DNA of 64,000 nucleotides, from assembly GCF_940670685.1 (NCBI RefSeq), contig NZ_OW711693.1, forward strand, positions 496,001 through 560,000. Reading direction: 5' to 3'. The position numbers were made by a program, and so were the translations under genes. This DNA is from Anaeropeptidivorans aminofermentans. Lineage in GTDB: Bacteria > Bacillota > Clostridia > Lachnospirales > UBA5962. Positions 34,869 through 47,555 of the stretch are shown piece after piece. The notes beneath the pieces were generated by a model, which saw only the letters and a list, made by a program, of their open reading frames with translations, was not told the origin of the DNA and searched no databases. The stretch's first letter is position 1; each line of letters begins with the position of its first letter.

Positions 34869-35951
34869 ATGGCTGAAAAGGTAGTAATGGCAATGTCCGG
34901 CGGAGTTGACAGCTCCGTCGGCGCCTATCTTTTAAAAAAGCAGGGCTATGACGTAATAGGCGTAACCATGCAAATATGGCAGGACGAAAAAAGATGCGAT
35001 ATCGAGGATAAGGGCGGTTGCTGCGGCTTGAGTGCCGTTGAAGATGCAAGAAAAGTATGCGCTGACCTGGATATTCCTTTTTATGTATTTAATTTTAAAC
35101 AGATTTTCAAGGATAAGGTAATTAATTATTTTATAGATGAGTATTATTTGGGAAGGACGCCCAATCCCTGTATTGCATGCAATAAACATGTAAAATGGGA
35201 AGCTCTTCTTGCAAGAGCTCTTTTCATGGAGGCCCAATATATTGCTACAGGCCATTATGCTAAAATAACAGAGCTTAAAAATGGGCGATATGCCCTTCAA
35301 ATGGATTTTAATAATCCAAAGGATCAGACATATGCGCTCTATGGCCTAACGCAGTTCCAATTGAAACATACGCTGATGCCTCTTTCAGGAATAGAAAAAG
35401 ATGAGGTGCGTTCCATTGCAAAGGAAATCGGCCTAAAGGTATTTAATAAGCCCGACAGTCAAGAGATATGCTTTATAAGCGATAATAATTACGGCGGATT
35501 TATTGAGGAAGAAGGGGGTAAAAAAATACTTCCCGGAAACTTCGTAAATACAGACGGGGATATTATAGGAAAACACAAAGGTATAGTCCACTATACGGTC
35601 GGTCAAAGAAAGGGTCTTGGCATCGCTTTTGGAAAGCCTATGTTTGTAAAGGAAATCAACCCGTTAACAAATGAGGTTGTGCTTTCTGAAAATAAGGAGC
35701 TTTTTTCTGAAGGCCTTATGGCATCGGATATAAATTATATGGCGGTTGAATCTGTAAAGGAGCCTATGGAGGCCTACGCAAAAATTCGATACTCCCATAA
35801 GCCTGTATTATCCGAAATTACTGCTCAAGGGGAAAATATTCTCTGTAAATTTAAGGAGTCCCAAAGAGCCGTAACCCCCGGTCAGGCAGCGGTATTTTAC
35901 GATAAAGACGGAAATATTCTCTGCGGCGGGGTTATAGAGAGGGCTGTGTAA
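34869..35951 (+). CDS. mnmA: tRNA-specific 2-thiouridylase MnmA
   Basis: A 360-residue enzyme that thiolates U34 of Lys, Glu and Gln tRNAs using sulfur from the desulfurase upstream. It has the PP-loop AMSGGVDSSVGAYLL, the catalytic cysteines in GRTPNPCIACNKHVKW and QEICFISDNNYGGF, and HYTVGQRKGLGI. An extra CCGLSAVEDARKVC segment is a normal family feature. TAGGTGA precedes the ATG. Confidence 0.97.
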   Translation: MAEKVVMAMSGGVDSSVGAYLLKKQGYDVIGVTMQIWQDEKRCDIEDKGGCCGLSAVEDARKVCADLDIPFYVFNFKQIFKDKVINYFIDEYYLGRTPNPCIACNKHVKWEALLARALFMEAQYIATGHYAKITELKNGRYALQMDFNNPKDQTYALYGLTQFQLKHTLMPLSGIEKDEVRSIAKEIGLKVFNKPDSQEICFISDNNYGGFIEEEGGKKILPGNFVNTDGDIIGKHKGIVHYTVGQRKGLGIAFGKPMFVKEINPLTNEVVLSENKELFSEGLMASDINYMAVESVKEPMEAYAKIRYSHKPVLSEITAQGENILCKFKESQRAVTPGQAAVFYDKDGNILCGGVIERAV

Positions 35952-35975
35952 TTATACTTAAAGATAGGTTACAAA

Positions 35976-36012
35976 AAAGAAGGTCGCACGTAAAACGTGC
36001 GGCCTTCTTTTG
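35976..36012. terminator. Bidirectional terminator between mnmA and the thioredoxin-repeat gene
   Basis: AGAAGGTCGCACGT and ACGTGCGGCCTTCT form a strong stem (one G-T pair) with a T run on the plus strand and a TTTTTTGT tail on the minus strand. It lies between convergent genes. Confidence 0.88.
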
Positions 36013-36019
36013 TATTCAT

Positions 36020-37705
36020 CTATTTTTCTTTGCTTTTAAGGAAGTTTTCTATATCGCTGGTACTTGTAGCATCGGAAAGCTTACTGTCATACTTGCCGTT
36101 TTTGTAGTACAGCAATGCAGGGAATCTGCTGGTTGACGGTGCATTGTCCAAAAGCCAGTTATAATCCTCCCAGTCTGAATTATCATGAGTGTTGGAAGAG
36201 ATATTTAATCCGTAATAAAAACGGGTATATGAAAACCTGTCATCAGTTCTTAAGATATCGGCGATTCTTTCAACATCTTCCTGGCTGTCCTTATCGGAGC
36301 TATCATATAAAACGACGATAAAGCTTTCATTGTCTCTGTAATATTCATCAAGCTGTTCAATGCTTGCGTTGTTAAGGATTGAATTCTTTATATCATCATA
36401 TCTTGATGAGCTTGAAGTACTCTTATGGTTATTAAATTCATCTATAATGGATTTTACCTTTTCAAGGGTCTTAGGCTGCTTATAGGTTTCCATATCGTCT
36501 TTGTCTTTATACATAAGGAACATAACAGGAAGCTCATCTGTTGCGTCATATCTATAATTCTTCAGAAAATCTACATTTTTATAGAAGTTAGGATATTTAT
36601 CGATATCAAGGCCGTAAACTAAAGCCTTTTTCTCTTTTGCTGCAGCCTTGATTACCGGGATATATTGCTTTGAATCCTCGTCTGTACGGTCATAGAGAAC
36701 CACGATAAACTCATTTTTATTGTTGTATTCTTTTTGAATCGTTGTGTCGGATTTTGACTTGAAATAAGTTGTATCGTCAAAATCTGCATAGTCGTATTCA
36801 GTGGAAGCTACCGTTGCAAACTTTGCTATTTCCTTTTGAAGCTTATCCATATCTGTAGGAGCCTGCATCTGAGTAACGTCAGATTTGGATTTTACAAAAT
36901 AAACTGTCGGGTCTTTAAATTCTCTTTCTCTGAAGAAACCGTTCCAAAGCCAATTGTTATCGGAAGCCTTGTTATTGGAATCATTCATATCCACGCCGTA
37001 AATTCTGTATTTTTCATCTTGAGCAGCGTCCTGAATATTTGGAACCATCATTTTTGAGCTTTCTTCGGAACTATCGTAAAGAACAAAAATAAATGGGTAT
37101 TTATTGCTGTCCTGGTACATTTCCTTAATAGCGGAAGAGGATATGATTCTGAAATAAGAGGTATTTGAAAAATCACCGTAATTATCGGGGATTTCAACCT
37201 CAGGTTCAGGGGGTACAGGGTCAGCAACAGCATTTGCAGTTATATATGCCGTATTTGTAGCAGCGTCCCATGAAACGGTTGCGCCGAGGGTTTCAGCTAT
37301 GCTTCTTACAGGGATATAGGTCCAGTTATTAATAATAACAGGAGCTACGGGGAGGAACTCAGTTTTTTCACTGGTGTATTGTTTATAGCCAAGGGAATCT
37401 ATTGTAAATTCACCGTATGTAACTACAGAGCTGCCAATATTCATAAAGGAATAGCGGTTGCCTCTGAATGCCATAACCTTTCTTTCAGGCTCATACCATT
37501 CAACGGTGGCGCCCATGGCTTCTCCTATTTCACGATAAGGAAGAAGTATTCTGTCGCTGATGTTTTGTATTTGGTTTTGAGTTGTAAGAACTCTACCGTT
37601 TAAATTAATTTTATACTTTGTGTCGGCTAAAGCTTGAGACTGCATGGCGGGTATTGCCATAAGGGCAGCCAAAGCAAATGCCAATGGCCTAGCAAATTTC
37701 TTCAT
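36020..37705 (-). CDS. Secreted protein: copper-amine-oxidase-like N domain plus three Cys-free thioredoxin-like repeats
   Basis: A 561-residue exported protein with a signal peptide (residues 1-28, ending QALA). Residues 30-155 are a copper amine oxidase N-terminal (stalk) domain with VLTTQNQIQNISDRILLPYR and WTYIPVRSIAETLGATVSW. Then come three related blocks, each with a thioredoxin-like strand: FIFVLYDSSEESSK, FIVVLYDRTDEDSK and FIVVLYDSSDKDSQ, followed by YGVDM, YGLDI or YGLNI. The position where thioredoxins have CxxC holds D-S/R-S/T instead, and no cysteine is present, so disulfide chemistry is excluded. It may bind envelope partners. A complete function is unknown. AGGAGG precedes the ATG. 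Confidence 0.75.
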   Translation of the reverse strand: MKKFARPLAFALAALMAIPAMQSQALADTKYKINLNGRVLTTQNQIQNISDRILLPYREIGEAMGATVEWYEPERKVMAFRGNRYSFMNIGSSVVTYGEFTIDSLGYKQYTSEKTEFLPVAPVIINNWTYIPVRSIAETLGATVSWDAATNTAYITANAVADPVPPEPEVEIPDNYGDFSNTSYFRIISSSAIKEMYQDSNKYPFIFVLYDSSEESSKMMVPNIQDAAQDEKYRIYGVDMNDSNNKASDNNWLWNGFFREREFKDPTVYFVKSKSDVTQMQAPTDMDKLQKEIAKFATVASTEYDYADFDDTTYFKSKSDTTIQKEYNNKNEFIVVLYDRTDEDSKQYIPVIKAAAKEKKALVYGLDIDKYPNFYKNVDFLKNYRYDATDELPVMFLMYKDKDDMETYKQPKTLEKVKSIIDEFNNHKSTSSSSRYDDIKNSILNNASIEQLDEYYRDNESFIVVLYDSSDKDSQEDVERIADILRTDDRFSYTRFYYGLNISSNTHDNSDWEDYNWLLDNAPSTSRFPALLYYKNGKYDSKLSDATSTSDIENFLKSKEK

Positions 37706-37879
37706 TAATTAAAACCTCCTTATAATTTTTATTAGGACAAGTTTATTCTAAGGTAATTATGCAGATAATCTTATTTGCATAATTCTTAGGATAAGAAGTC
37801 CGGGCTATTTAACAATGCGAAAACCAGTTGCTCTTTCAGTATATCCCCCTAAGCAATTCAAATTAAGTATGTCTTATAA

Positions 37880-37931
37880 TCAATTTACATTTATTCCGAC
37901 TACGAAGTACAGTAAAAGTAAATTGATAAGG
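37880..37931. repeat. Short palindromic repeat
   Basis: ATCAATTTACATTTATT and AGTAAAAGTAAATTGAT form inverted arms, as at 31084. The surrounding stretch 37706-38280 has no gene. Confidence 0.45.
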
Positions 37932-38284
37932 GGCTTTTTAAAAGCTCCTGTTATAATTAAAACCTAATATTGAACTGCTGAGTAAAAAGCCATAGATATA
38001 TTATATACTAAACTTATAAAATTTTCTTCAGTTTGTTCAAAAGTAATATATTTTTAATATAACTGAAACATTGGAAGACAAATAGCAAACTTAATGGAAG
38101 ATTTCGGAAAATTCATATTTTTGCAAAACGGAGTAATAATAAAAACATGGCATTAGGTAAAATAATAGATTGATTTTAAAAAAGTATTCTATATATATTA
38201 TCAAAATTATTTTTGCCACGAAATTATAAGATTAAAATAGCATTATTTTTAACAATAAGAAGCCTTTATATCAATAGAGTTTTG

Positions 38285-38390
38285 TAAGATGCTCCAAAGG
38301 TTAAAAATCTGGAGGGATGCGACGGCTGCAAGCCTTAGCAACACTTGTTTGCAGGTGCAAAACATGGTAGAATATAATGGAAAAAGAGCT
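38285..38390 (+). ncRNA. Structured leader upstream of pgk, faintly S-box-like
   Basis: The stretch is GC-richer than its surroundings and can form CTCCA/TGGAG, AAGG/CCTT, GGC/GCC and CACTT/AGGTG pairings. CTGGAGGGA, then GCCTTAGCAAC, then GGTGCAAAAC resemble the order of conserved SAM-I riboswitch segments (GGAGGGA, GCAACC, GGTGC, AA). Closing stem P1 and the typical terminator are not obvious and pgk is not a methionine gene, so the class is unsettled. It ends about 45 bases before the pgk start. Confidence 0.3.
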
Positions 38391-38434
38391 TATTTGTTAA
38401 TTCATTAACAAAGCTTTAAGAAGGGAGCTAAAAT

Positions 38435-39625
38435 ATGCTTAAGAAAAGGTCTGTAGAGGATTTGGCGCCAAAAGGCAAGAGAGTGCTTGTAAGGTGCGAT
38501 TTTAATGTTCCTTTAAAGGATGGAGTAATTACCGATGACACTAGGATTGTGGCTGCCGTTCCCACTATAAAGAAATTGATTTCAGAAGGCGCGAGGGTTA
38601 TACTTTGTTCTCATCTCGGAAAGCCCAAGGGCTTTGACCCAAGCCTTTCATTAGGTCCTGTTGCAGCAAGGCTTTCAGAGCTTTTAAATAAGGAAGTTAC
38701 TTTTGCCTGCGATGAAGCGGTTGTAGGCGAAAATGCAAGAAGTGCTGTTGAAAAAATGCAAGACGGAGATATTGTGCTTCTTGAAAATACCCGTTTTAGA
38801 AAAGAAGAGACAAAAAACGAAGAAGCATTTTCAAAAGACCTTGCTTCCCTATGTGATTTATTCGTTAACGACGCTTTTGGTTCTTCTCACAGGGCTCATT
38901 GCTCCACCGTGGGCGTTACTGAATTTGTAAAGGAATCCGCCGTAGGCTATTTAATGGAAAAAGAAATAGAATATCTCGGCAATGCCGTAAATAACCCCAA
39001 CCGTCCTTTTGCCGCCATCTTAGGAGGGGCAAAGGTATCAGATAAAATTGCTGTTATTAATAACCTTCTTGATAAAGTGGATATTTTAATTATAGGCGGC
39101 GGCATGGCCTATACCTTCTTTAAAGCAAAAGGTTATGAAGTAGGAAATTCTCTCCTTGAAGAAGATAAAATTCCCTATGCGAAGGAAATGCTTGAAAAGG
39201 CTGAAAGAAACAATATAAAGCTTCTTCTTCCAGTAGACACGGTAGTTGTGAAGGAGTTTAAAAACGATACGGAATATAAAACGGTTCTTTCTTCTGAAAT
39301 AGAAAACGGCTGGATGGGCGTTGATATCGGCGAGGAATCAAGAAAGATTTTTGCCGAGGCCCTTAAGGAAGCAAAGACTGTTATTTGGAACGGACCTATG
39401 GGCGTATTTGAATTTGAAAACTTCGCCAAGGGAACCATTGCCGTAGCCGAAGCTCTTGCCAATATTGAAGCCACCACCATCATAGGCGGGGGAGATTCTG
39501 CCGCTGCCGTTACCCTTTTAGGATATAAAGATAAAATGAGCCATATCTCAACCGGCGGAGGCGCAAGCCTTGAGTTCCTTGAAGGAAAGGAACTTCCGGG
39601 GGTTATGGCGGTACAGGATAAATAA
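38435..39625 (+). CDS. pgk: Phosphoglycerate kinase
   Basis: A 396-residue glycolytic enzyme passing phosphate from 1,3-bisphosphoglycerate to ADP. It shows [52 protein letters not shown] and the nucleotide motif [11 protein letters not shown] with [13 protein letters not shown] near the end. AAGGGAG precedes the ATG. It heads the lower-glycolysis genes; gapA, usually just upstream, is not present here. Confidence 0.98.
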
Positions 39626-46730: not shown

Positions 46731-47555
46731 TTATTTTACTATTTTTACGTTAAATTTATCGTCTATTTCAATATTGCACTTTATGACTTGAAGAAAATAG
46801 GAAGAGGAAACATAGCTTAACCCCGACCTGTTTATTACGGGATATTTTTTATTTATCTGAGTATCGTAAAGAAGGTGGCTGTAAAAATCGCCGTTGGGGC
46901 TTGAAACCGTAACCATTTGGTCTCTTTCAGACCAGCTTACTTTATAGCCCAGAGCCTCGCAGACCTCTCTTACGGGTATGTACACCATATTGTTTACTGT
47001 GGGGTAGGCGGCGTTTTTCATCATTTTGCCGTTTACGTAGACGACGTTTGACGCTGTGTTGCCCCCTTCAAAATTAATATAGGTTTTAAGAAAATAATCG
47101 TTATTTGCTTCTTTCAGCATGTCCTCATATCTTATTTTATCGCTTCCGAAACTAAAGGGGATAGAGGTAGAGGTTGAAATAGCCATAACATGGCTTCCCG
47201 ATTCGGATATTTTTCTAAAGCCGCTTTGATTGCTCCACTTGTCCTTATCGTATACGCAGAGGGTCATTAAAACCGTCTGCTTAACGGGAGCGTCAACAGC
47301 CTGATAATATACTATTATTTTTTCCGTAAAGTCGGATTTTTTCCCCGGCATTTCTCTTTTAAGCGAAACGTATTTCTGCCAGGAATAAGGGATCATAAAT
47401 GTATATTCTACATTTTCCCCTTTAATAAGTTTATTGGTATTCAGCATCTCAAACCTTTTTACGTCAAATTCGCCCCCATATACTGTAGAGGCCGAAAATA
47501 CCGTTGAAAGAGAAAGAAAAATTAATACCAGAGATTTTGATAAGCTTTTTTTCAT
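46731..47555 (-). CDS. Secreted stalk-domain (copper amine oxidase N-like) protein
   Basis: A 274-residue exported protein with a signal peptide ending near STVYGGE (residue 28). The C-terminal half carries a stalk domain: VYVNGKMMKNAAYPTVNNMV, YIPVREVCEALGYKVSW and MVTVSSPNG. The middle resembles no family known to me. Such domains are common on Clostridia surface proteins and do not bind copper by themselves. ATG 47555 follows GGAGGAG by four to five bases. Confidence 0.75.
   Translation of the reverse strand: MKKSLSKSLVLIFLSLSTVFSASTVYGGEFDVKRFEMLNTNKLIKGENVEYTFMIPYSWQKYVSLKREMPGKKSDFTEKIIVYYQAVDAPVKQTVLMTLCVYDKDKWSNQSGFRKISESGSHVMAISTSTSIPFSFGSDKIRYEDMLKEANNDYFLKTYINFEGGNTASNVVYVNGKMMKNAAYPTVNNMVYIPVREVCEALGYKVSWSERDQMVTVSSPNGDFYSHLLYDTQINKKYPVINRSGLSYVSSSYFLQVIKCNIEIDDKFNVKIVK

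Follow-up and report, generated by a model that had tools for sequence, protein, structure and literature searches.

The locus examined here raises the question of what role an exported bacterial protein might play when it carries three repeats reminiscent of thioredoxin and not a single cysteine. It lies in a 64,000-nucleotide stretch (hereafter, the window) of the single-contig genome (3,757,330 bases) of Anaeropeptidivorans aminofermentans, the type strain of which, the anaerobic M3/9T, came from a biogas reactor (PMC9682168).

Gene context, export signal and stalk domain

The gene occupies positions 36020..37705 of the window, exactly as originally delimited, and is encoded on the minus strand, which had not been specified; its product consists of 561 amino acid residues. 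Reading of the sequence revealed a ribosome binding site, AGGAGG (37715..37720, minus strand), 9 nt upstream of the ATG. A terminator-like hairpin is located just past the stop codon (35985..36001, minus strand), a signal that is weak by itself, two such hairpins being found versus 1.6 expected in shuffles. The gene is flanked on one side by genes for an Rrf2 regulator, a cysteine desulfurase, an IscU-like protein and MnmA, and on the other by the glycolysis genes pgk-tpiA-gpmI-eno, all of them on the plus strand and named by reading. The divergent arrangement with pgk spans positions 36020-38434 of the window, with an intergenic region of 729 bases. Of the seven genomes in the organism's own family, four (G000, G001, G002 and G005) show it; the Rfam search of positions 35500-38600, this intergenic region included, gave no match. 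In another of these genomes (G006), the orthologue (L064, 7452-9215, plus strand) is found 28 bases after ftsW, in an mraY-murD-ftsW cluster and on the same strand. The neighbourhoods revealed no partner gene kept across the family.

The deduced protein begins with a signal peptide read from the sequence (residues 1-27; 37625..37705, minus strand), with likely cleavage after A-L-A (25-27), and neither a lipobox nor an LPXTG motif was seen when the 561 residues were read. It is followed by a Cu_amine_oxidN1, or stalk, domain (PF07833; residues 35-155; 37241..37603, minus strand), matched in Pfam with 81.2 bits against a gathering cut-off of 24.2 (E 6.5e-23) and carried by the orthologues as well. 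The suggestion of a surface-attachment type of domain fits this assignment, given that binding to secondary cell wall polymers has been reported for the PF07833-type domain of Clostridium thermocellum OlpC and that non-covalent wall anchoring of OlpC has been shown (PMC4582956). By analogy with OlpC, we infer that the stalk domain would serve as the wall anchor of the 561-residue protein. About 20 PF07833 proteins are encoded in the genome, and a second match to this domain is present inside the window (46890-47036, minus strand; E 3.6e-9).

Three thioredoxin-like repeats devoid of cysteine

Residues 178-561 are covered by three repeats of about 125 residues each, with a period of ~128 amino acids, namely residues 178-303 (36797..37174), 307-432 (36410..36787) and 436-561 (36023..36400), all on the minus strand. 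The three motif blocks first noticed in this protein were located at residues 205-239 (FIFVLYDSSEESS then YGVD), from residue 333 (FIVVLYDRTDEDS then YGLD) and from residue 462 (FIVVLYDSSDKDS then YGLN), respectively. Smith-Waterman comparison of the repeats with each other gave scores of 155, 82 and 73, whereas shuffled sequences averaged 34-36 (Z 19, 7 and 6). Since no shuffle of 1000 attained any of these three scores, the proposed triplication is real; in the control comparison, the repeats aligned with the stalk domain at chance level.

The AlphaFold2 model, built from a 13-row alignment, has a mean pLDDT of 82.4 and a pTM of 0.55, so that each domain can be trusted individually but the placement of the domains relative to one another cannot. 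In this predicted model, every repeat superimposes on solved thioredoxins with a Z of about 12 over 102-117 residues, where, according to the fold-comparison tool, values of 7-8 are typical of models without a clear match: repeat 1 (model residues 175-295) has a Z of 12.3 to 1zma, repeat 2 (307-427) of 12.6 to 3apq_B and repeat 3 (441-561) of 12.3 to 6q6u_A. The top Foldseek chains are multi-thioredoxin proteins, namely ERdj5, PDILT, ERp44 and calsequestrin, and the order of strands and helices also recurs in a single-sequence model of low confidence. The thioredoxin-like nature ascribed to the repeats is thus borne out by structure prediction and fold comparison in all three of them. We consider this fold well supported. 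The claim rests on predicted structure, the repeats resembling thioredoxins only very faintly in sequence. The PF00085 match stays below the gathering cut-off (18.3 bits versus 23.5) and comprises a C-terminal fragment only, hhalign to thioredoxins returned a probability of 4%, and Thioredoxin_6 (PF13848) matched three of 37 repeats at E <= 0.1 (best 5.8e-5) and did not match repeat 1 of the window. A weak match to SarA, obtained in a profile search against the sequences of solved structures (E 0.005), was rejected as contradicted by the fold comparison, and NCBIfam and PHROGs yielded nothing useful for the 561-residue protein. The repeats are without a model in the domain databases searched. 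As neither Pfam nor NCBIfam recognizes them over the cut-off, such proteins probably go under the bare annotation 'stalk domain-containing'.

The conserved motif had been predicted to occupy the site where thioredoxins carry CxxC, and it does sit at the former redox loop: YDSSEESS in repeat 1 (residues 210-217; 37055..37078), YDRTDEDS in repeat 2 (338-345; 36671..36694) and YDSSDKDS in repeat 3 (467-474; 36284..36307), all on the minus strand. In a gapless register with the CGYS of a distant homologue (L072, described below), which falls on E214-S217, E214 corresponds to the first and S217 to the second, resolving cysteine; hhalign with the thioredoxins of the same genome likewise places Ser at the second cysteine of CxxC. 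Across 62 repeats from 27 loci, a set from which the weak profile matches L111-L115 were omitted, no cysteine occurs at either position and Ser occupies the second in 33. None of the homologues found has an intact CxxC, the sole partial case being the distant CxxS protein. The position assigned from the alignment to the cis-Pro, before strand 3 of the fold, appears to be retained, with Pro in 61 of the 62 repeats (P266, 36908..36910; P393, 36527..36529; and P529, 36119..36121, minus strand, in repeats 1, 2 and 3, respectively). In thioredoxins this residue is probably part of the substrate site (PMC2757866). The conserved polar positions lie mostly at the old active pole, with D/N211 in 84%, S/T212 in 89% and S/T217 in 58%; D/N239 is conserved at 98%, and the conserved F205, Y210 and W252 look like core packing. 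Compared with redox-active thioredoxin (PF00085), the repeats therefore have the fold and the cis-Pro position, but neither the CxxC nor a score above the Pfam cut-off.

That the whole protein lacks cysteine was also correct, with none among its 561 residues. This total absence is not remarkable by itself, nor is it by itself a sign of repurposing, because it is common in exported proteins of the same kind. Cysteine is missing from about half of the other stalk proteins that were examined in the genome, and, in statistics that cover the window and the stalk-domain loci and recognize signal peptides by a crude rule, the probability of finding no cysteine in 561 residues is 0.15 at the rate of these proteins versus 0.001 at that of those proteins of the window that have no signal. 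In obligate anaerobes, cysteine tends to be excluded from exported proteins (PMC12453122).

Distribution and evolution of the repeat family

Orthologues are present in all seven genomes of the organism's own family, and the repeat was found at convincing scores in 20 of 392 sampled genomes of the order (these seven and 13 others). Apart from the window itself, a search of 391 genomes of the class gave one match, L072, and a search of 398 genomes of the phylum gave none. The search of genome contigs with the single protein sequence gave no relative. The named relatives are metagenome-assembled genomes labelled Defluviitaleaceae and an uncultured Clostridia bacterium. The number of repeats ranges from one to six overall; it is two in most members from other families, and in the own family it is three in five members and five and six in the remaining two. 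Copies of repeat 1 from different members of the family fall into one clade (support 0.999) and those of repeat 2 into another (0.997), which indicates that both are old and have kept their identity; repeats 3 and up multiplied separately within lineages. One relative (L056) has a stalk-like N-terminus, a single cysteine-free thioredoxin repeat and then, as judged by eye, an apparent SCP/CAP domain. In three genomes, a two-repeat stalk protein is encoded beside a Peptidase_S8 (subtilase) gene with a product of 573-574 residues (L144, 1202-2923; L150, 2947-4668; L151, 3208-4932).

The distant homologue L072 (1021-1860, minus strand), from another family of the class (genome G558), is exported and consists of a thioredoxin domain with CGYS, followed by PF07833. 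Its gene adjoins recA, and pgk begins nearby. It matches the repeat profile at E 1.7e-5; when used as query, it retrieved, besides itself, stalk-domain matches only. Like the window protein, it joins a homologous thioredoxin domain to PF07833; it differs in having one repeat, the reversed domain order and the first active-site cysteine still present. Its CGYS is a possible intermediate in the loss of CxxC.

Phage sequences gave no match and plasmids matched by the stalk domain only. In the viral structure library, the top entries are phage proteins annotated as copper amine oxidase, which may match mainly by the stalk domain; the first of them, BFVD A0A8S5SPM7 (Phage sp. ctPjm15), comes from a phage contig and is possibly a phage-borne stalk protein.

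Possible roles of the array

All three thioredoxin folds are without the cysteines needed for chemistry, and the protein is therefore probably a binding or display module. Non-catalytic thioredoxin domains, lacking CxxC, serve in protein binding or structure (PMC7687155). Taken together with the wall binding of OlpC, the roles of such CxxC-less domains, the cis-Pro and the conserved polar loop lead us to favour, tentatively and at slightly less than even confidence, an exported, wall-anchored and redox-dead thioredoxin array that binds a protein or peptide at the old substrate pole. The N-terminal stalk domain would anchor the protein to the wall; the three folds would point outward as a non-redox array; in each repeat, a protein or peptide would be held at the old substrate pole, made of the former redox loop and the cis-Pro loop, much as by the b/b' domains of PDI and by ERp27/ERp29; and the number of repeats, variable in the family, would set reach or avidity. 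Binding by the repeats is suggested by the conserved positions.

Known systems offer partial parallels. The non-catalytic domains of the PDI family (b/b', ERp27, ERp29) share with the repeats the thioredoxin fold, the loss of CxxC, the tandem layout and an exported compartment, and some of them bind proteins or peptides. Unlike them, the repeats are bacterial, are joined to a stalk domain, have no catalytic thioredoxin domain in the chain and show no sequence similarity passing Pfam cut-offs. OlpC and ScaG of clostridia likewise couple a copper-amine-oxidase-like domain (PF07833) to a protein-binding module, which is a cohesin in their case, whereas the modules displayed by the window protein are thioredoxin folds.

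The main rival, to which we give roughly one chance in three, is that the repeats are a pure spacer, lengthening a rod and so keeping the stalk domain, or a C-terminal surface, at a distance from the wall, with no ligand pocket in use and with cysteine lost through general avoidance. It owes this standing to the fact that the same conserved residues might only cap a helix, as D/N211-S/T212 simply could, and it agrees with the general cysteine avoidance in exported proteins noted above, with the range of one to six repeats and with the lineage-specific amplification of the C-terminal ones. Against a spacer, the polar positions of the former redox loop are conserved across families sharing only about 20-30% identity, and the separate identities of repeats 1 and 2 have been kept, which a plain spacer would not need.

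Calcium buffering in the manner of calsequestrin, through acid groups on the surface, is unlikely because the acidity is not conserved. Calsequestrin too is built of three tandem thioredoxin folds without CxxC, calsequestrins are among the ten best Foldseek matches, and the repeat part of the window protein has a net charge of -21; however, the six other family genomes show no more than -2 to -14, which gives a span of -2 to -21 over the seven, the pI reaches 7.1, and the window protein has no acidic tail. The family also differs from calsequestrin in its variable repeat number and in its location, the bacterial envelope versus the sarcoplasmic reticulum. Slightly less probable still is an accessory role in envelope proteolysis, in which the repeats would retain peptides for a secreted subtilase or keep that enzyme in check: the two-repeat version directly adjoins the Peptidase_S8 gene in the three genomes, all of a related family, yet neither the window nor the other examined members of the family showed this neighbourhood, the gene there being mostly divergent to pgk. 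Finally, a redox enzyme without the canonical pair, acting for instance via selenocysteine or the thiol of a partner, would account for the kept fold and cis-Pro and for the CxxS of the distant homologue, but is extremely improbable: the gene contains neither a cysteine codon nor an in-frame TGA, the active-site cysteine is absent from all 62 repeats, separate CxxC thioredoxins are encoded in the genome, and the sequence already excludes that the protein carries out thiol redox chemistry of its own.

The surface-displayed, non-redox binding array thus remains the favoured reading. Thioredoxin arrays devoid of redox activity are known best from the endoplasmic reticulum of eukaryotes (PMC7687155). 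Non-catalytic arrays of this kind are known as such; the one described here belongs to a stalk protein of a bacterium and has no curated domain model. More doubtfully, and with the odds rather against it, these proteins may constitute a new wall-anchored family in which the redox pole of thioredoxin has been turned into a ligand pocket (Y-[DN]-[ST]-x4-S plus cis-Pro) and repeated in tandem; they would then be the bacterial equivalent of the non-catalytic PDI domains, and the CxxS relative may record an intermediate step. As a bacterial surface family of variable repeat number, in which the cis-Pro is kept and CxxC is systematically replaced, it would offer a simple system in which to study the role of the thioredoxin substrate groove once its chemistry is gone.
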